64,000 nucleotides of DNA, from the NCBI GenBank assembly GCA_963575745.1, contig CAUYUJ010001744.1, positions 33,608 to 97,607 on the forward strand, given 5' to 3'. Positions 2,148-31,440 of this stretch are shown here, one piece after another. The stretch's first letter is position 1. Every line of letters starts with the position of its first letter. This DNA comes from Prorocentrum cordatum (taxonomy: Eukaryota > Sar > Dinophyceae > Prorocentrales > Prorocentraceae). A model generated the notes under the pieces. That model worked only from the letters and a program-made list of their open reading frames with translations, ran no database searches and had not been told where the DNA came from. A program made the position numbers and the translations under genes.

Positions 2148-3298
2148 TCGCAGCCCCTGGATCGTCCCCTGAGCTGCTCCTCGTTCTGCGCACCGCCGCC
2201 TCCGCCGTCAGCTCCAACGGCCGCCGCTGGACCGCCAGCGCCGCCTCCTTCGGGGCCCATGCCAACGGCGGCGCCGCCGTCACCAGCAGAGGCTCTCCTG
2301 GCACCGCCTCTAGCGGCCGCACCGTCGGTCAGGGCAGCAGCAGCCGGCGGGGCGCCCAACCCCGCACCAGTGGTAGCCTTCACCTCCATCATGCCCGAGT
2401 GCACCACGTTCCTGATGGCCCACTGGGTGGCAAGGTGGCAGGTCCCAACCGCCTGCTCGCACAAATCCGGGACCGACGCGCCCATGGCGCACAGCCCCTG
2501 CGGCACGGGCCAAAAGTGCCCCTGGCTGCAGGCCTCCACCGTCGCCCCCACGAACTGGCCTGCAGCCCCCGCGGGCCAGGCTCATGACATGCGGGACTCC
2601 GCGATTTCGCAAGGCTGGCCCCACAGGTCGCACATGACGATCTCCAGCATCGCTCCATGGAGGAGCTGCAGCTGCTGCAGCGCGCAGGGGGCCAGCGGCG
2701 GGTAGATCCAAGGCCCACGACCGCCTCCACAGCCCGCTGGTGCCGCCACCGGGGGCATGCCGAATGGCTCGCCGCACGGAGGCAGGCTATCGGGCACCCC
2801 AGGCATGCCTCCAGCCGCCGCCCTGCCGGGGCAGCCTCTGGCCAAGCCCAACTGCTCAGCTCCGCCAGCGGCGCCCCACGGCGGCACGCCCCAGCTGCCC
2901 GCGGGACCACCCGCGGTGGGGGCTGGCGGCGGCGCGCCAGCAGGAGGTGAAGCTCCCACGGCCAGCGGCACCAGGAGGACCTGCGAGCGCGCCGACTCGA
3001 GGCAGCCCAGGGGCGCCGCCCACCGTCCCTCCCGCGCCAACGGCAGCCCCAGCCACGGCTGCAGGAACACTTCGCACCGTGCCGCGGGCGGCTCCTCTCC
3101 CAGCCGCAGCGCCAGCAGGCCCTCTCCGGACGGCGCCGCGTGCTGGGGCGAGCTCGACCATGCCACCCATCGCCGGCTCGGCAGCCCGCGCGCCGCCAGC
3201 TCCAGCTTTTCCTGCGGCGCCTCCAGCGCCTCCAGCGCCTGCGACCGCCGCGGCCTTGGCGAGGCGCGGCGGAGGCGGGGGCAGCAACCCGCCCACAC
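2138..3298 (-). pseudogene. Pro/Ala/Gly-rich N-terminal part of the same locus, in-frame TGA
   Basis: One minus frame stays open from 3298 to 2138 except for a TGA at 2582-2584. Both sides read as the same kind of protein: LQQLQLLHGAMLEIVMCDLW before the stop and GHFWPVPQGLCAMGASVPDL after it. The upstream half is Pro/Ala/Gly-rich low complexity. In GC-rich DNA long frames arise by chance, so only the less biased stretch (about 2400-2760) is good evidence of coding. No family is recognised. Confidence 0.33.
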
Positions 3299-7364: not shown

Positions 7365-7418
<54 letters not shown>

Positions 7419-7506
7419 GCACACATCTACATCTACATCTACATTTGCATCTACATCTACAAATACATATACATATACATATGCATTGCATATACATATA
7501 CATATG

Positions 7507-7546
<40 letters not shown>

Positions 7547-7577
7547 CACATACACATACACATACACGTATACAAAC

Positions 7578-7619
<42 letters not shown>

Positions 7620-7925
7620 GCATATGCATATGCATATACATATATATATACATAGACATACACATACACATATACATATACATTTACATATACAGATACA
7701 TATGCATATGCCTATACATATACACAAACAAATGCATATACCTATATATACACATACATACATATATAATTATACACATACATACATACATACATACATG
7801 CATACATGCATACATGCATACATGCATACATGCATGCATGCATGCAAGCATGCAAGCATGCATACATACATACGTACATACATACATACATGCCTACATG
7901 TATATATACACATGTATATCAATAG
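7365..7925. repeat. (TA)n, (CATATA)n and (CATA)n microsatellite block
   Basis: The (TA)n tract is at 7365-7412, CATATA-type hexanucleotide at about 7420-7770, and CATA/CATG tetranucleotide at about 7770-7905. Frames through it are repeat-encoded (YVYVYV and IHIHIH). Confidence 0.95.
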
Positions 7926-10466: not shown

Positions 10467-10654
10467 CAGGGCAGCAGGGCCGGGCCGCCGAGCCCCAGCG
10501 CCATCGGGCCCCGGGCGCCGTGGGACCCCCCCCCCCGGCGGCCCGCGCCGCCCCCCCCGCGGAGGCGCGCCCGCGCCTCCTCCTCGGCGCGCGCGACCAC
10601 GGAGGCGCCGGTGGCCCCGAGGGCGGCCTGCGCCGAGCCCCCAAGGGGGGACGA
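10467..10654. other. GC-rich stretch, no gene seen
   Basis: Very GC-rich. Open frames are compositional. Confidence 0.4.
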
Positions 10655-10859
10655 ACGCGGGCGACGAACGACGAACGACGATCGACAATCGACGACGACA
10701 GTCGACGATCGACGACGACGACGACGTGCAACGCGGGCGACGAACGACGAACGACGATCGACAATCGACGACGACAGTCGACGATCGACGACGACGACGA
10801 CGTGCAACGCGTGCGACGAACGACGAACGACGATCGACAATCGACGACGACAGTCGACG

Positions 10860-10882
<23 letters not shown>
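10655..10882. repeat. Three near-identical 76-bp tandem units
   Basis: Units start at 10655, 10731 and 10807, exactly 76 bp apart and almost identical. Each contains GAACGACGAACGACGATCGA and ends in (GAC)n. (GAC)n continues to about 10940. The near-identity implies a recent duplication. Confidence 0.95.
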
Positions 10883-13964: not shown

Positions 13965-14100
13965 TGGAGGGAGGGCGGGAGGGAGAGAGGGAGGAGGAGG
14001 AGGAGGAGGAGGGAGGAGGAGGACGAGGACGAGGGAGGAGGAGGAGGAGGACGAGGAGGAGGAGGAGAAGAACGAGGAGGAGGAGGAGTGAGTGAGCGAG
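13965..14100. repeat. (GAG)n microsatellite
   Basis: Interrupted GAG/GGA tract. Confidence 0.9.
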
Positions 14101-14159
14101 CAATGCCCACGTCGTGGGATCCGACGGGCGGCGGCGGCCGCCACCCGCGCAGCCCCTCC

Positions 14160-14262
14160 TCAGTCGAAGTAGAGCTGGGGCTGCCTCTGGAGCATCGCGA
14201 GGGCCTCGGCGCAGGCAGCGTGGCGCACGAACTCGCCGTGCCAGAAACCAGCATGCAGTACT
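14160..14262 (-). CDS. Possible terminal exon or C-terminal coding fragment
   Basis: On the minus strand, downstream of LINE-1, one frame reads HAGFWHGEFVRHAACAEALA, continues MLQRQPQLYFD, and ends in TGA at 14160-14162. The composition is unlike the repeat shadows around it. A CAG-like acceptor context lies just upstream near 14258. It may be a cellular 3' exon or part of the LINE-1 3' region. The assignment is tentative. Confidence 0.25.
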
Positions 14263-14875: not shown

Positions 14876-15919
14876 TCACTGCTGCCCCATAACCGCGTCA
14901 ATCCACTGATGCCACCCTTGCGTGCGGGTGCTGCGTACCTTCTTGAAACCTGTGGTCGCCCTCTTCCAGCGCTCCTCACCCTTGGGATAAAGCGGCAGGA
15001 TGTGCGCTACGAGCTTGGTGAGGTCAGACACGCGCTTCTGACTCTCGTCCATCGCCTCCTGGAACGTTGGATCGACCTGGGGATGCATCTCTGCTCCAGC
15101 GCGTGCAAACCTGTCGGCCACAACGCTCGCATCGGTGAGCCTGCGAATCTCAGGGGTGAGCTGCGCATACTCTTCGCCCGAACGATGAGCCTTCACGTGC
15201 GCCACTCTCTCGATGTACTTGCACCCGTCCATGTCCTGAGCAAAGGCCATGACCCCGCCGCAGATGGAATTGACTGCAACCTGCTTCTCCGCTGGCGCCA
15301 TTCGTGCTTTGACTGTGCCCATGAAATCCGCATGGGCCCAACAGCGACGATCAGCAAATTGGCCAGTGAATGCAAGCGCAAGGTACTCCGCCATAGCCGA
15401 CGACTGTGGCAACGTAGCGGGGACAGGCGCGTACATTGAGCACAATGGCAGATCTGAGTCAGGATGGAGCAGCGCCACTGCCCAGCCAGCCCTCTGCAGC
15501 GTTGCCAAGGCCGGCTTGGAGCACGAGCCGTCGATCGCAAACTCGGCCAGCTCGACCTCCGCCTCCAGGCAATGTGCCACCATCGTTTCAGGGGTGGCGA
15601 GTGAGTTATTGCCCTGGGCTTCCACAACACAAGCCTGCACTCCAGCATTCATCGGGGGAATGTCCTGATCCTGAAACGTGAAGCAGCCACTCAGATGTCG
15701 CCGTTCATCGGGATGGTCGCGTATCCACTGGAGAAGCTCGGGTCCGACATCAGCCTCTCGTCGAGCTTCAGCAATATGTGGAAGGGGGCAGTCTGCTAGC
15801 CTGTGCGCAAGTGCGTCCATGGCCCCGCACTCGCACTTCCCATCCGCGATGTATCCTTCAGATCTGGCTCGAGCCTTTGTCCAGACACCTGCGACAGCAC
15901 GCGTGTAGATACAGAGTTT
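14876..15919 (-). pseudogene. LINE-1 RNase H domain
   Basis: The N-terminal CECGAMDALAHRLADCPLPH is a cysteine/histidine knot like those that follow RT in many LINEs. The RNase H fold has its acidic residues in order: FAIDGSC (first Asp), SAMAEYLALAF (Glu), HADFMG (second Asp), then VKAHRSGEEYAQL and DASVVADRFARAG. The domain would degrade the RNA of the RNA-DNA hybrid. The frame ends at TGA 14876-14878 but remains in register with the downstream zinc module. Confidence 0.88.
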
Positions 15920-16342: not shown

Positions 16343-17395
16343 TCATGCAGGGTCCCCCAAAAGTACCAGCTTTGCACTAGCAGACACGCATCCGCGGTGC
16401 GGCTTATGGTACTTGTGGTAGCTCCTACGGAGCCTGTCCAGCTCGCCGCCATCGACGCCGTTCACCTCGATCCCGTACGTGAGCGCAGGACGCGCCCCTG
16501 TGCGGTACACTCGCCCGACTCCGGCCGTTGCCTGAGTCGGTATAGCACGACGGAACTTCTGGAGATTGCGAAGCCGCTGCGAGTGATGCTTGGGTCTCTG
16601 CCTGTACTTGCCTCTGTTATTGGGAGCTCCTCGCGCCCTTCCTCCAGTGAAATCCGCGCCGAGATACGGCGCGGTCCTCGTGCCAGCCTTGCCATCGACC
16701 CCAAGTCTGTGCACAATCTCGTTGGTGATGTCCTGAGAGCCCCCCACGACCGCGAACTTATCGTCCAGCTTGGCCCCAAGTCTTTGAGCCGTAGCCTGGA
16801 AACCTTCGGCAGCAGCGACCGCCAATTCGATGGCCATCTTCTGGGAGCCGCTCTCCAGGCCGAGGGAGGCGTCGTCGATGTAGGACGAGAACCGCACAAG
16901 GGGAAACAAGGATACATACCTGTCGTATTCCTCAACCGCATGCGCCTTGATAACTATGTCCGCATAGCCATCCCCAGCAGGTATGCCGTCAACTGCATGA
17001 ACAGGTCGTCCTCCGTGGTGTGTGCGAAGACGAATGGCGCGCGGCCCCTTCCATTGGTTGTAGACCAGCTTGAGCTGCGCGGTCGAGGCCCCGAGCCTGG
17101 TGAGCTTGTCTCTCACGCTGTCCAGGGGTATCGTCTCAGAGTACTTGCTGTAGTCGGCGATCACCGTGGCAGCGCGACGGCCCTGCACCCCGCTCGCCTC
17201 CGTCTTGGCCGCGAGGAGCCACGCGCTATCGATGGCGCTCCTGCCTGAAGAAGCCCCCCAGCACTTCCTTTCGATGTGCCTCTGCAGGTCACTGAGCGCT
17301 GGCCGACGTGCGCGCTGCCATGCCCGATAGCTGACAGAATATAAAATGATGAGCCTGTGCCCTCCCATGCTCTTTGGCAGCATGGGCATTACCAT
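16343..17395 (-). pseudogene. LINE-1 reverse transcriptase domain
   Basis: The 350-codon frame has the RT blocks in order. RT0/1-like GGHRLIILYSVSYRAW is at residues 11-26. Motif A ADYSKYSETIPL is at 80-91 with Asp81. Motif B GIPAGDGYAD is at 137-146, where the usual PQG is PAG. The catalytic YIDD is at 172-175. A KLDDKFAVVGGS thumb-side segment follows. It ends at TGA 16343-16345, but the same frame continues KEAFSPALQW into the next segment, so the stop is probably a mutated Trp or Arg codon. The domain would copy element RNA at the nicked target. Confidence 0.93.
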
Positions 17396-17460
17396 CCAGG
17401 TGAGCTGCCGAGGTAACAGCCCGATCCGTTCACTGGCCCCCCACAGGCAACCAAGGACAC

Positions 17461-18258
17461 CTAGTGCAGCATCGCTGAGATGCGGAAAGTGAGAAGGATG
17501 AAATCCGTCCAGGCTACTCGAAGTCCTCGTGGGGAAGGAACGTGATGCCCGACGGATCTGGCACGGGTAGCCCGAACCAAAGCTGAACGGTCAGGCACCC
17601 ATGCCTCAGGCGCTGTAGTGGACGCCTTCCACAACTTCGCGTACTTGTCCTCCATGTCCTCGACGATGCGCTGGGGGCGCGCTGAGAACACGCTGTGCCT
17701 GTCGGTGACGACCGTGGGAGCCTGTACGTGCTTGTAAGCCGTGACTCGGTGTAGCCTGCCTGCTCCGTTATGGCTGGCACCGTCGCACTGCGCCTTCCAA
17801 CTAGCACCACTATCACGATCAGCGGCCTGCTTTGCAAGGTGCACGTCCACATCGGCCTCTTCCAGCCGCCAGTTGATGTCCGACGCCGGGGTTGCCGCCG
17901 ACGGTAACAGTCGTCGGGCTTGCGCCACCGTAGCGTCTAGGCGATGATCCGCACCTTGACCAGGGTATTGCGTAGCATTGAAGCCGTGGACCTCGTCGCT
18001 CGCCTTCTCCTTGTTACCAGCAACGTTGGAAGCCTTTAGCATCGCAATGCTCTGCAGCCCGTCTTGACGCCATTTCCAGCCATCAGCAATACTCTGAATA
18101 CCTTCGGCATCTTTACCTTCATAAATGTATTCCACCCACTTCGGACGGACGGCATTGGCGTAGCTCCTGCACGCTTGGCATCGGCACCAGTGAGGTGACA
18201 CAGACGCTCGCCCATCTTGGCAGCAAAGTTGGCCCACGCCTGCCCGAGAAAATGCCAT
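17461..18258 (-). pseudogene. LINE-1 linker between endonuclease and RT
   Basis: The frame from 18258 carries VRPKWVEYIYEGKDAEGIQS, helical segments and ARPQRIVEDMEDKYAKLWKA. A shifted frame ends LWFGLPVPDPSGITFLPHED before 17514. It links the endonuclease and polymerase domains. At least two frameshifts are needed. Confidence 0.65.
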
Positions 18259-19220
18259 GCCGCATCAACCTCTCCATTCAAAGAATTGTCCACAGCTGCC
18301 TCTGCATAGCATCGCTCAGCATCCCATTCAGGCTCAGGACGCATAGGCCCGTGAACGATGGCCGCGTCGAGCTTCGGGCAGCCCGTCTGCGTCAGGTACT
18401 GCAGCTTGTGCCCGATTGTGGCCCTCTCCACTAGGACAGGCCGATGAGGTTTTACCGGCCATTTCCGATCCACACGAATCTCCTTGAGCAGCCGCACTGC
18501 CGCTGACGTCATCGCGAAAAACTCGATGGTGGCGCTGGCCCTCGCAGTGCGGCATGTTATATCTGATGGCTGGACAATCGCAACATTCGCATCCTTCGTG
18601 AATGTGGACTCTTCAACCTCAAGCGCGGACATGTTCCAATCACCTCCAATGATACAAGGGGATAGCTGCGCCGCCATGGCCAAGCCTATAGTCATCAGAA
18701 TATTGGCATTTTTCTCTGGCATACTTTCCGCAGTTTGCAAATGCACATTGAAAAGGTTGAACGACGGCCGCCCAGGAACATCAATCACAACGTGCTGAGC
18801 CCGATGGGGAACCAGCTCGGACCCAAAAGCACTGCTGCTCTGGGTCTGGCCCTGCCCCACCTTCAGGTGGCCCTCGGGGTAGACAGGCCCGCGCAGACCA
18901 ACGCCAATCCGCGCGAAAACAGCAACTCCAGCAGAGGCCAGTTTCCCCCCGCTCTTCTCCCCAGGAACGATGATAGCTTGCCAGCCATTCCCTCGTGACC
19001 ACGTACTCATAGCTTCGCGCTCCCAGTCGAGATAGCCAATCTCCTGAGCCATGGCGATGAGAGAAGATGTGGCCTGCAGTCGCTTCTTTAACGTCGACTT
19101 GCCCGCATTGGGGTTGAAGATCTCTATGACATGCGACCCCGCAGCTTCAGCTGGAGGAGAGGGGGCCACGGTCTGGGACTGAGATATCCGCAGCCCTGAT
19201 ACACGGGCCAGTCTGGTAGT
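18036..19220 (-). pseudogene. LINE-1 APE-like endonuclease domain
   Basis: The frame gives an endonuclease/exonuclease/phosphatase fold. It has STWSRGNGWQAIIVPGEKSG then SAGVAVFARIGVGLRG, a central beta-strand stretch FNLFNVHLQTAES, the metal and catalytic GGDWNM (complement of 18632-18650), and the C-terminal KPHRPV (complement of 18436-18456), equivalent to the SDHxPV-type histidine motif. In active LINEs this domain nicks the target site. The N-terminal 200 codons of the same open frame overlap the ORF1-like region in another frame and are not coding. The frame stops at 18036. Confidence 0.87.
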
Positions 19221-19221
19221 A

Positions 19222-19863
19222 CTACCCACCCAGTCCCCCAGTCCTGGCTGCACCACCACCTGCGAGTTTCCTGTGTCTGGTATTCTGGACGTTCTGCACC
19301 ATCTCCATGGACTGGTCATTGGTAACGGAGATCTCGCCAGACTCGGCATTGTGCATGTTGGCCCAGAGCGACTCAATCTCCGCCTTCTCGAACAGGAAAT
19401 TTGTGGGCCGCTTGCTTCGGTCAGGGGGGTCTGCACTACAGGGTCCACCAGTTGCGCCTTGGCGGCTCCCGTTGGCGTTGCCGCTGCCGTCAGCAAAGAA
19501 ACCATCAGCAGAAGAAACAGCATCAGCTTGCTCGAACTTGGTCTGCGCTTTCTTCCGCAGCATGGACTGCACCCTCGCCCAGTGAGGGTGTGCCACGGGC
19601 TGGTCAACGAACCCGCGCACGGCAACCGCATCGGCATCCTCACCCTGGAACTCGGCATCCTCAGTGTCGAAAGTGAATAGGTCCTCGGGCAGCTGGGGCG
19701 CGAAGACTTCCTTGGCACCAGGCAACTTCGACGCATGCTGGGCCACCTGCTGCTCGAGCGCCATAGTATAAGCCTCCTTGGCCTCAACCGCAGCCATCTT
19801 GGCATTGATGTCGCTCTGCATCTGCAAGAGATTATTCTCCATGTCCTCAATATCCTTCCTGCC
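19222..19863 (-). pseudogene. LINE-1 ORF1-like continuation
   Basis: The same frame as the segment ending at the 19864 TAG continues GRKDIEDMENNLLQMQSDIN and further into 206 codons from 19842. It begins with coiled coil and becomes acidic and phenylalanine-containing (PEDLFTFDTEDAEFQGEDA). It ends in a Gly/Ala-rich tail, where the reading shifts by one into the endonuclease frame at about 19220. No catalytic motif. Confidence 0.7.
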
Positions 19864-20709
19864 CTAGGTGATCTGGCCGCGCACGCGCTCCAGCTTGTGC
19901 AGCGCCTGCAAGCGACTTGAGCTGCTTGACCTGCTCGCGGAGCTTCTCCAACTCCGCCTTGGCGAGCTTGGCCATCTCGCCGTCCTCCTGGCCGAGAGAG
20001 CTGAGGTCCTTGAGCATGCGCTCGTGGATGTTGATCTTCTCCTGGAAAGCAGCGCGCTTGGTAAAGTTATCGTCCTTCGAGGGCTCAGCGGCACCGACGA
20101 TTTCCATGTCGTAATCTGCAGGAGCCTGAGAGCCGTTGGCCTTGCGGGCGGCAGCCAGAAACGCCCTCGTCTCGCTGAGCTCTTGCTCCATCTTCTTGAG
20201 ATCCTTGTTCCACGGTGCCACCTTGGGATTCTGCAGTCCAGCTCCTCCAGCACGCTGTGCTGGCGACTTGGCTGCAGTAGCTGCCTCCTTGTCCGCCTTC
20301 CGCGCCTTGACCTGCACGTGCTGCGGCGCATGCTTGCCACACTGGCAGACGACCTTCGACGCCCAGTGCGTGCTGCACCCGCACGATGGGCAACCCCAGT
20401 GCGGCTTCTTCGGGCCGCGGAGGATCCTTGGCTGAGGTGAAAGGGGCGGCGCCATCCTGCCAGGTGACGATCCGTGGTGTCCTCGTAACCGTCGGGCGGC
20501 GCCCTCCAGCTGCGCGAGCAAACGGGGCGAACTGCGCCCCGCCCAGGCGTGCAGGAGGGCGCGATCCGCCGCACGGCGAAGTCGCGCTCGATGATGGGCG
20601 GCGTCCTCACGGGGAGACGCCGTGGCCGAGCGCTGGTCTCGGCGCGCGCGGGGGGGGCCCTCGCCTGCGCTGGCAGGCTCCTGCAGGGGCGGCACCTCTC
20701 GAGCCGAAA
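19864..20709 (-). pseudogene. LINE-1 ORF1-like: zinc ribbon and coiled coil
   Basis: A frame is open from the spliced-leader relic to 19847; it starts at a TTG within the relic, and the first good ATG is at 20455. At about residues 105-130 it carries WGCPSCGCSTHWASKVVCQC, a CxxC...CxC zinc-ribbon-like cluster. After this comes a Lys/Ala-rich linker, then a long charged helix with coiled-coil character (AFQEKINIHERMLKDLSSLG and KLAKAELEKLREQVKQLKS). One frameshift near 19910 moves the helix into the frame LHKLERVRGQIT, which meets a TAG at 19864-19866. A role in binding the element RNA, as for other LINE ORF1 proteins, is inferred. Confidence 0.75.
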
Positions 20710-20731
20710 CTTGAGCCAAAATGGTTACGGG
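20710..20731 (-). other. Relic of the dinoflagellate spliced leader (DinoSL)
   Basis: The minus strand reads CCGTAACCATTTTGG followed by CTCAAG. This matches 20 of 21 bases of the conserved core of the DinoSL (CCGTAGCCATTTTGG, then CTCAAG); the sole difference is G to A at the seventh position of the 22-mer. The 5' D position is C. It is joined directly to the open frame of LINE-1. The DinoSL is added to nuclear mRNAs by trans-splicing, so a genomic copy at a coding 5' end indicates reinsertion of a processed transcript. A chance match of 20 of 21 at this location is very unlikely. Confidence 0.93.
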
Positions 20732-20962
20732 AAAGGAGGAGGAGGAGAAGGAGGCGGAGGAGGAGGAGGAGGAGGAGGAGAAAGCGGAGGAGGAGAGAGA
20801 AGGGAGGAGGGAGGAAGGGAGAGGAAGAGGAGCGAACCCGAGCCGAAGGAACGCCCGAGTCGCGCGTGTTCCTCTGGGGTGCTCCTCCGGAGAGGGCGAC
20901 GAGAGGAGGGTGGACGGGAGGAGAGAGAGAAAGAGAGAGAGAGAGAGAGATCCCCAGAGGTG
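20732..20962. repeat. (GGA)n and (GA)n microsatellite, abutting the LINE-1 5' end
   Basis: (GGA)n at about 20736-20835 and GA-rich tract at 20925-20952. It begins at the very base after the spliced-leader relic. Confidence 0.9.
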
Positions 20963-22427: not shown

Positions 22428-23632
22428 GGAAATATCCTCACAGCCCGGCCTTAAAACTGCCAACGACATACCCTCACGCCCCTCGCTTAAAACGGCCAGC
22501 GAAACATTCTCACACCCCTCGCTCGAAACTGCCAGCGAGATATCCTCACCGCCCCTGGCCTAAAACTGCCAGCTAAATATCCACACCCCCTGGACTACAA
22601 ACTGCCAGCGAAATATCCTCAGCCCCCTCGCTTGAAACTGCCAGCAAAATATCCTCAACCCCCTGACGTCAGAAATATCATCACACACAACTGAAAACTG
22701 CTAGCGAGATATCTTCACCCCCTAGCCTAAAACTGCCAGCGAAATATCCTCCCCGCCCTGGCTTCACACTGCCAGCGAAATATCCTCACACCCCTCAGAA
22801 AAATATCCTCACCCCTGGCCTAAAACTGCCGGCAAAATATCCACACCACCCCTGGCCAAAAACTGCCAGCGAAATGTCCTCACACCACTCGCTTGAAACT
22901 GCCAGCAAAATATCCCCAACCCCTATGACTTAAAACTGCCAGCGGAACATCCATAACCTGCGGCCTGAAAATTGCCAGTGAACTATCATCACACCCCTCG
23001 CTTAAAACTGCCAGCGAAATATCCTCAACAACCCTCGCTTCAAACTGCCCGCTAAACATCCTTAAACCCCTGACATAAAACTGCCAGCAATCTATCCTCA
23101 GCCCCCTCGCTTGAAACCGCCAGCGAAATATCCGAATCGCCCCTGGCCTAAAACTGCCAGCTCAATATCCTCACTCCCTGGCCTAACACTGCCAGCGAAA
23201 TACCCTCCACCCACGGCCTTAAAACTGTCAGCGACATATCCTTAACCTCCCTGGCCTAAAACTGCCATCGAAATCTCCTCACCCCCTGGCTGAAAAATTG
23301 CCACCGACATATCCTCACGCCCCTGACTTGAAAGTTCAAACCAAATATTCCCACCCCTCGCTTGAAACTGCCAGCGAAATATCTTCACCGCCCCTGGCCT
23401 AAACCTGCAAGCTACATATCCTCAGCCCCTGGCCTAAAGCTGCCAGCGAAATATCCTCAACCCCTGGCCTTACAACTGCCAGCGACATATCCTCACCGCC
23501 CCTGGCCCAAAACTGCCAGTTAAATATCCTCACACCCTGGACTCAAAACTGCCAGCGAAATATCCTAAACCCACGGCCTCGAAACTGCCAGCAAAATATC
23601 CTCACTCCTGGAAATAAAACTGCCATCTAACG
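22428..23632 (+). repeat. 1.2-kb degenerate minisatellite, unit about 37 bp
   Basis: Roughly 32 units with the core AAACTGCCAGCGAAATATCC followed by TCACCCCCTGGCCTAA. Units vary by substitutions and small indels and all are in one orientation. There is no long reading frame through the array. A (CAGT)n stub follows at 23653-23672. Confidence 0.95.
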
Positions 23633-28994: not shown

Positions 28995-29215
28995 TCATAA
29001 TCATTACCTGCAGCCTCATCATCATTACCATCACTATCATCAGCATCAGCATCCATCAGCATCAGCATCATCATCATCATCAGCAGCATGATCATCATCA
29101 GCATCAGCAGCATCAGCATCAGCATCAGCATCATGAGCAGCAGCATCATGAGCAGCAGCATCATCATCAGCATCATCAAAATCATCGTCAGCATCATCAT
29201 CGACATAATACGAAT

Positions 29216-29269
<54 letters not shown>

Positions 29270-29530
29270 GTCCATCAACATAATCATCATCAGCAGCATT
29301 ATGTTTCGAATCGGAATCATCATCATCTTCATCGGCATCATCACTATAACCAGCATCATAATAATCAGCATCATAAGAATCAGCATCATAATACTCAGCA
29401 TCATCACTATCACCAACATCAGCATAATCATAATCAGAAGCAGCATCACCATCATCAGCATCACCAGCAACATAATGCTCATCATCATAATCAGCATCAT
29501 CACTTTCACCATCATCATCATCATCATCAG

Positions 29531-29584
<54 letters not shown>

Positions 29585-30894
29585 AATCAGCATCATCATC
29601 ATCAGAAGCAGCATCATCATCACTATCATCATCATCAGCATCAGCATCACCATGATCGTCGGCATCGTCATCATCGCCATCATCATCATCAGCAGCAGCA
29701 ACAGCAGCAACAACAGCAGCAGTAGCAGCGTCCTCCTCCTCCTCCTCCTCGTCCCTCTTCCCCTCACTCCAAACATGAAGAGGTCCTCGTACACCTCGTT
29801 CATCGACGCGTTCGACGCGACGAACTGCGAGCTGGCGTTCTCCTCCGCCTGGCTCGGCCAGCCGAAATTCATCGCCCACTATGCGCTACCCGATCCTGGT
29901 CCTTTTCCTCATTGCCATCGTCTTGGCCATGATCAGCATAATCATCATCACCACCACAATCAGCATCATCATCATCATCATCATCATCAGCATCATCATC
30001 AGTTGCATCTTCATCACCACCACCACCACCACCACCTTCATCATCATCACCACCACCAACGACACCATCAGCATGACAATCATAACTAGCAGAAACACGA
30101 TCATCAGCACCAGCACAAGCAACATCAGCATCCTCATCAGCATCAGCATCATCATTATCAGCATCGTCCGTATCATCATCAACAATCGGGTCATCATCCT
30201 ATTCGCCATCATTGTTGTCATAATCATCAGCAGCAGCAGCCGCGGCATTATCATCCTCCTCAGAATCCTCAGCATTGTCAGCATCATGTCAGCATCATCA
30301 TCATCATCAGCATCATCCGCATCAACATTATCATCATCAACATCATCGTCCTTCCAACCGTCGTCATCAACACCATTGGTATCAGCGTCATCATCATCAT
30401 CAGCATCAGCATCAGCATCGTCAGCATCATCAGCATTATTATCGGCATTCAAATCGTCGTCATCATCATCACCATCGTCATCATTGTCATCAGCATCATC
30501 ATCAGCATCGGCATCAACAGCATCATCATAGTCAGAAGCATCATCACTAACATCACCAGCTTCAGCATTATCATCCTCGGCCTGATCCTCAGCATCAGCA
30601 CCCTCCCCACCATCGTGCTCATCATCACCATCGGCAGTATCATCAGCAGTAGCATCAGCATAAGGATTACAGCAGCATCATCATGAGCATCAGCATCAGT
30701 ATCATCATCCTCATCACCATCATCACCAACAGCAGCATCCTCATCAGCATCATCATTATCAACATCAGCATCAGCATCAGCATCATCATCATCAGCATCA
30801 TCATCATCGGCATCATCATCGGCATCATCATCAGCATTATCAACATCATAGTCAGCAGCATCCCTATCCTCCTCCTCCTCATCATCAGCACTAG

Positions 30895-30953
<59 letters not shown>

Positions 30954-31440
30954 CAATCCGACCACCACCACCACCGTCACCATCGCCAGCGTGAGCATCA
31001 TCAGCAGCAGAATCATCATCAGCATCAGTATCATCGTCATCATCATCATCATCATCATCATCGTCATCATCATCATCATAATCGTCATCATCGTTAGCAT
31101 CAGCATCATCAACATAATCATCATCAGCATCATCGGCATCATCATCATCACCACCATCACCCTCATCCTCGCCATCATCCCCACCCGCCTCCTCATCATC
31201 ACCATCAACATCAACATCATCATCATCATCATCATCACAATCCGACCACCACCACCACCACCATCACGATCGCCAGCGTCAGTATCATCATCAGAAACAG
31301 CATCATCAATATTTGCATCATAATCATCATTATCATCCTCATCATCATCATCATCCTCATCAGCATCATCAGCATCATCATCATCGTCAGCATCATCATC
31401 ATCGTCAGCATCATCATCATTATCATCAGCCACCGTGCCA
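28995..31440. repeat. 2.4-kb CAT-trinucleotide satellite
   Basis: Nearly continuous (CAT)n with CAG/CGT/CAC variants at 28995-29740, 29935-30660 and 30661-31440, broken by a non-repetitive island at 29741-29934. The blocks ATCACAATCCGACCACCACC (30949 and 31228) and GTCACCATCGCCAGCGT-like (30975 and about 31262) occur twice, showing segmental duplication inside the array. Frames through it are runs of Ile, Met or Asp. Confidence 0.95.
29741..29934 (+). other. Non-repetitive island inside CAT satellite, possible coding fragment
   Basis: After a (TCC)n stub the plus strand reads MKRSSYTSFIDAFDATNCEL, then AFSSAWLGQPKFIAHYALPD. The composition is protein-like and quite unlike its surroundings. 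The nucleotide sequence is C/G-ending in codon third positions, as in dinoflagellate genes. It may be an exon relic. No family recognised. Confidence 0.3.

Follow-up and report, generated by a model that had tools for sequence, protein, structure and literature searches.

The window, meaning the whole 64-kb stretch of DNA that was analyzed (GC content of 62%), carries on its minus strand a retrotransposon copy that runs from a junction with a spliced-leader (SL) sequence to about position 14089. Judged by its sequence, the copy belongs to a family of dinoflagellate non-LTR retrotransposons (LINEs) and is full-length, at about 6.6 kb, but decayed. It is interrupted by frameshifts and stops, and no second copy was found within the 64-kb window. 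The name LINE-1 given to it in the preliminary description is a label only and does not imply a mammalian-type L1 identity. The parts of the copy and its flanks are as follows.

20734 to 20832, minus strand: (CTC)n pyrimidine-rich tract directly 5' of the insert (found by TRF); such tracts are target DNA in copies where this is readable
20710 to 20730, minus strand: DinoSL relic, 20 of 21 bases; the exact SL stands at the same junction in copies L046, L058, and L061
20709 to 20710, minus strand: putative splice junction, SL ...CAAG / TTTCGG; most other copies read ...YAG / TTTCGG
20456 to 20709, minus strand: conserved 254-base 5' leader, beginning TTTCGGCTCG, with a predicted 5' terminal stem
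19215 to 20455, minus strand: ORF1, with its ATG at 20455 and its frame broken in the window copy (end approximate, taken from L054)
18350 to 19150, minus strand: putative AP-endonuclease-like region of ORF2 (GGDWNM, PHRP), recognized by eye, limits approximate
16343 to 17590, minus strand: reverse transcriptase of ORF2 (PF00078; SYIDD), E value of 4.9e-5, under the curated cut-off
15100 to 15550, minus strand: RNase H-like region of ORF2 (IDGS..AEY..D..HVKAHRS), recognized by eye, limits approximate
14089 to 14162, minus strand: element 3' end, ...GGATCCCACGACGTGGGCATTGCTCGCTCACTCA, without poly(A), common to close full-length copies, limits approximate
13990 to 14088, minus strand: (CTC)n tract directly 3' of the insert (found by TRF)

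The sequence CCGTAACCATTTTGGCTCAAG at positions 20730 to 20710 of the minus strand is the DinoSL core with a single mismatch, a G-to-A change within the internal CCGTAG. It was the only site in the 64-kb window that matched the SL with three or fewer mismatches, the second-best site having five, and no match of this quality arose in any of 100 shuffled versions of the window. The relic directly abuts the conserved 5' terminus of the LINE, which confirms the initial observation that an SL-like segment is followed at once by the LINE's open frame.

By eye, ORF1 has a zinc-ribbon-like start followed by a coiled-coil-like remainder. The Pfam search gave no match for the AP-endonuclease and RNase H-like regions, and the structure model of the former had a mean pLDDT of 30 and was unusable. 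For PF00078, the window copy and copy L054 scored just under the cut-off, and the relative P0001 scored above it (E value of 5.9e-13), so that through P0001 the family possesses a LINE-type reverse transcriptase. Relatives of the window reverse transcriptase were absent from viral contigs. At the 5' end, a fold predicted with RNAalifold from 21 copies pairs the initial UUUCGGC with a GCCGAGA about 70 bases on (window position 20709 to about 20630). An HDV-like ribozyme was considered for this end but is not supported: the predicted fold is a nested stem, and Rfam returned no family at E values up to 1 in positions 20300 to 20850. Elsewhere, the window holds large simple or satellite-like arrays at 7365 to 7910, 29016 to 31428, 10654 to 10878, and 22429 to 23605; the units of these arrays are ATACAT, TCA, 76 bases, and 36/73 bases.

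Copies of the element were then compared across the 4.13-Gb source genome. Searching with positions 20900 to 20400 gave 40 places, the best 40 of 219 candidates, which were read as the window, 20 full copies, and 19 snippets; one of the 40, L078, lacked the 5' end, leaving 39 copies for comparison. In all 39, the element started at one and the same base, with TTTCGG or a close variant. The sequence immediately before it was a pyrimidine stretch plus AG in 28 copies, a pyrimidine stretch plus AA in 2 (L049 and L077), the SL in 4, other sequence plus AG in 3, and other sequence without AG in 2 (L070 and L074). AG thus preceded TTTCGG in 31 of the 35 copies that lacked the SL. At least 80% of the upstream 30 bases were pyrimidines in 33 of the 39 copies, compared to 2.06% of window positions (2633 of 127940, a background that includes the element's own flanks). 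A second query without the SL and the tract (20709 to 20410; best 40 of 125 candidates) recovered 39 of the same 40 places, and the class proportions were therefore not produced by the first query. The preliminary description had named two signs against its reading, namely conserved sequence shared upstream of the junction by other copies and absence of the SL from all of them. Neither was seen: among the 21 copies with 1.5 kb of upstream sequence, an all-against-all comparison yielded eight scattered matches, none of them less than 190 bases from the junction in both copies and so none adjoining it, and three of the 38 copies besides the window have the SL. Immediately behind the SL stand 12 bases, TTTCGGCTCGAG, that agree with the SL end at 10 positions. 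They were considered as an older second SL in tandem; this was rejected because all 39 copies, with or without the SL, start with this sequence or close variants of it, making it the element's own 5' end.

Insertion sites distinguished target DNA from insert. Target-site duplications of variable length (14 to 17 bases), as expected of a LINE, could be read in seven copies (L047, L049, L053, L054, L056, L063, and L082). Those at the 3' tails of all but L082 measured 15 to 17 bases. In L047, L053, L056, and L063 the duplication stops just before AG/TTTCGG, and no AG follows its 3' copy; in L049, AA stands between duplication and TTTCGG. The L054 duplication lies outside pyrimidine sequence and is 14 bases long, or 16 with an AG whose assignment is ambiguous. 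In L082, the clearest case, the duplication, TCCAGGGGCCACCTG, is not within pyrimidine sequence; AG/TTTCGG follows its 5' copy and GCGCTAG its 3' copy, and because these following bases differ, the AG belongs to the insert. From these sites, the AG is the insert's own first dinucleotide, as could be told in five copies (L047, L053, L056, L063, and L082), and the pyrimidine tract is target DNA where duplications are readable. The register of the duplication was masked by CTC tracts in L050, L052, L055, and L057, as well as in the window and L046, both of which have CTC on either side of the insert. Duplications of useful length were found in none of L048, L051, L058 to L062, L064, and L065, a set that includes the SL copies L058 and L061. 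The 3' region fetched for L077 consisted of N in the stretches printed, and no duplication was read there. A 3' end was located in 13 of the 21 copies examined (all but L048, L051, L059 to L062, L064, and L065), and a pyrimidine tract followed 12 of these 13, a count of which five copies are not independent, as five copies already known to have the pyrimidine repeat supplied the references for the tails. The 3' tails were (TTC)n, (CAT)n, (TC)n, or CTCACTCA, simple repeats of the kind that end LINEs, and poly(A) was present in none of the 3' ends read. Read together, the copies show that the family prefers pyrimidine tracts as insertion targets, mostly (CTC)n as read on the sense strand. Cis-splicing of host exons to the LINE, considered for L051 and L054, was ruled out for L054 by its clean target duplication.

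Because the insert's AG comes to lie directly behind pyrimidines, insertion into such a tract builds the form of a 3' splice acceptor. Host read-through transcripts would be trans-spliced at this acceptor into capped mRNAs that contain the element from its first base onward, and some of these SL-bearing mRNAs would then serve target-primed reverse transcription that continues through to the SL, giving rise to the SL copies. Most of the copies that begin with AG and lack the SL would come, less surely, from a second, unspliced RNA beginning at the AG itself, which may be a transcript initiated at the first purine after the tract. We consider this combined account, with landing in a tract and the element's own AG forming the acceptor, retroposed trans-spliced RNA giving the SL copies, and a second RNA giving the AG-start copies, to be the best explanation of the aligned copies and quite likely correct; the AG-start copies probably derive from RNAs starting at AG. 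The four SL-free copies without AG (L049, L070, L074, and L077) count against it.

The origin of the AG-start copies could be explained in two other ways. They may also have come from the trans-spliced mRNA if reverse transcription stopped two bases inside the SL, which itself ends in AG. This would account for the AG being part of the insert and would need only one kind of RNA. However, CAAG, TCAAG, or CTCAAG preceded TTTCGG in none of the 35 copies without the SL, whereas CTC microhomology should favor CTCAAG, and we judge this explanation unlikely. Alternatively, an unspliced read-through RNA that included the parental tract may have been joined through CTC homology at the new site, given that CTC tracts are found at both parents and targets. 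The base before the AG seemed linked to subfamily in the first 21 copies, with five TAG and one CAG in copies of the L059 type and eight CAG, one TAG, one GAG, and one CAA in the other types. In the second batch, however, the L059 type was mixed (four TAG and seven CAG). In addition, the distinctive part of the duplication ends about 5 bases from the AG in L047, L053, and L056, and L082 has the AG but no tract, making such an origin distinctly improbable.

The SL is joined exactly at TTTCGG in the window, L046, L058 (where the junction reads GTTCGG), and L061, and it is letter-perfect in the latter three. On a tree of 20 copies built from the first 6 kb, with L051 left out, these four copies require four separate gains of the SL, and well-supported branches leave no smaller number; the placement of L061, whose branch is long, is unsure. 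The SL was accordingly added more than once, at the point where sister copies have an acceptor-like YAG. This pattern reads as the signature of splicing and not of a leader inherited by descent. Together with the pyrimidine-AG acceptor form at the position of the SL junction in 28 of 39 copies, the joining of the SL at one base and its four gains support the original proposal that LINE transcripts are trans-spliced and that the spliced RNA is retroposed at full length.

The companion proposal, in which the SL supplies an identical leader to every copy and acts as a portable 5' untranslated region, did not hold, as only 4 of the 39 copies have the SL. Among the other copies compared, 3 of 38 begin with the SL. 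A fixed, heritable SL handed from copy to copy would agree with its presence in four copies, three of them exact, but it is largely refuted by the 35 copies without it, by the scattering of the SL copies over the tree with a gain needed for each, and by the lack of any tandem SL among the 20 fully fetched copies, and it now has very little probability. LINE enzymes are able to switch templates, and the join could in principle have been made by the reverse transcriptase switching onto SL RNA. Such switching should yield SL intron sequence or scattered joins, but in four copies the exact end of the SL exon meets the exact first base after the AG, and we regard this as equally improbable. That chance or misassembly produced the join is scarcely credible even for a GC-rich, repeat-rich draft assembly with N gaps, given the shuffling result above and the identical junction in four contigs.

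Whether the leader is translated was a separate issue. The first methionine of the ORF1 relative P0003, named Prorocentrum cordatum, and that of L054 fall at the same place as the window ATG at 20455, and positions 20456 to 20709 were therefore taken as a 254-base leader. In L053 and L055 there is no methionine ahead of the conserved motif, that is, the ORF1 methionine is missing. Upstream of the ATG, 20 of 21 copies keep the ORF1 frame open as far as the 5' end, which it meets in the three possible frames in 9, 11, and 1 of the 21. The leader varies much like coding sequence in the ORF1 frame: across 10 copies, variation at the three codon positions was 0.345, 0.259, and 0.595, compared to 0.727, 0.528, and 1.322 in ORF1. 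The leader may thus be translated. With respect to the SL itself, the earlier statement that the frame reads through it (VTILAQV) was correct as to the open frame, but translation of the SL as a feature of the element was not borne out, as ORF1 starts at an ATG of its own behind the 254-base leader and the frame at the 5' end varies between copies. All four SL copies are in frame 2 (Fisher P = 0.02), and L058 has a stop in its leader; the shared frame is suggestive at most. A predicted metagenome protein from MGnify, P0006, matches the leader translated in the ORF1 frame; upstream of the leader region it reads PVSFLAVV, and the window reads PVTILAQV through the SL.

Some copies appear to be young. 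L052 and L054 share 99.4% identity across 6.7 kb, and L054 has both of its frames open, which suggests recent activity. The EukProt protein P0007, assigned there to Pyramimonas sp. AAC.1, shares 99.4% identity with L054 across 344 amino acids, and P0002 and P0004, from the same EukProt entry, are up to 88% and 94% identical to copies in the source genome. We take the source of P0007 to be a transcriptome, and if it is, LINEs of the L054 type are transcribed. The Pyramimonas label may reflect contamination.

The same machinery may have a wider role. According to the accessible part of one study (PMC6050394), retrogenes make up 22 to 23% of the genes in two Symbiodinium genomes, and the responsible element is called unknown, with LTR elements favored as mediators. 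In the source genome, the exact SL is preceded within 8 bases by CTCCTCCTC (CTC) at 1948 minus-strand sites and by GAGGAGGAG (GAG) at 744; forward-strand counts, which contain overlaps, were 4446 and 1514. Either repeat sequence occupies 0.6 to 0.8% of positions in the sequences examined. The difference between 1948 and 744 (binomial P below 1e-100) demonstrates an orientation bias only and not an enrichment, the GAG count, which was intended as a near-zero control, being itself large; the exact SL directly downstream of (GAG)n, opposite to the LINE orientation, is thus frequent genome-wide. The bias fits insertion in the orientation of the LINE, and it could also result from the retention of relics that can be spliced again. 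Directly downstream of the LINE copy L053, at the end of its duplication (8367 onward), another exact SL relic lies in a CTC tract, followed by other sequence. In our view, the bias and this adjoining relic speak for a possible link between the LINE and retrogenes. We put forward tentatively, as a possibility, that a LINE that builds its own splice site could rely on host read-through for its expression and need no promoter and that its machinery, or that of its kin, also inserts host mRNAs tagged with the SL into CTC tracts, which would make it one source of dinoflagellate retrogenes. A LINE that shows signs of trans-splicing and retroposition of its own transcripts, along with a young pair of copies, makes the question of retrogene origin testable. 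As a separate observation, a contig of 22% GC from a viral collection (L001, IMGVR_UViG_3300045993_001077), the only one among 37 loci, holds two exact 19-base DinoSL stretches (2746 to 2764 and 2893 to 2911, minus strand) 147 bp apart. One of them lies 45 bases ahead of the ATG of a 254-amino-acid open reading frame (1936 to 2700), which looks like an SL-tagged host cDNA in a virus-like contig.

The comparisons that follow draw on the accessible portions of the papers cited. SL relics have been described on retrogenes and viral inserts of dinoflagellates, as have fusions of SL exons to transposons in Schistosoma. DinoSL-relic retrogenes (DinoRL; PMC12014239, PMC6050394, and PMC3229502) likewise have a genomic SL relic 5' of a retroposed, trans-spliced mRNA. 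Here, by contrast, the retroposed RNA is that of the LINE itself, sister copies show the acceptor-like site, and duplications can be read at insertion sites. In Schistosoma mansoni (PMC5832876), a genomic SL exon is similarly fused to retrotransposons and was read as possibly trans-spliced and retrotranscribed, but assembly chimeras remained possible there, and the study as accessible contains neither an acceptor-building insertion nor a comparison of sister copies. Endogenous DinoRNAV elements (PMC10235124) also have relict DinoSL near the inserts, with LINE-mediated retroposition proposed, but their cargo is viral, and the role of LINEs is argued there from proximity and from abundance across genera. 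LINEs that target microsatellites or specific sites (PMC4640811 and PMC2887409) are likewise tied to simple repeats or fixed targets; in the Prorocentrum family, unlike these, the repeat is the pyrimidine part of a splice acceptor that the element completes. In the literature searched, which covered few subscription papers and some sources in part, we found no LINE that completes a trans-splice acceptor upon insertion. A counterpart in expression is the trypanosomatid L1Tc/ingi group (PMC8190864), which also comprises LINEs in a genome with polycistronic, SL-trans-spliced transcription. L1Tc makes unspliced RNAs from its own +1 by means of an internal promoter, Pr77, a 77-base sequence that is also an HDV-like ribozyme, and these unspliced transcripts in a trans-splicing genome are a parallel for the unspliced AG-start RNA proposed here. 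The Prorocentrum LINE differs in that its 5' leader has no Rfam match and its border has an acceptor-like site instead, which suggests another way for a LINE to obtain its 5' end where transcripts are trans-spliced, unlike the promoter-ribozyme of trypanosomes.
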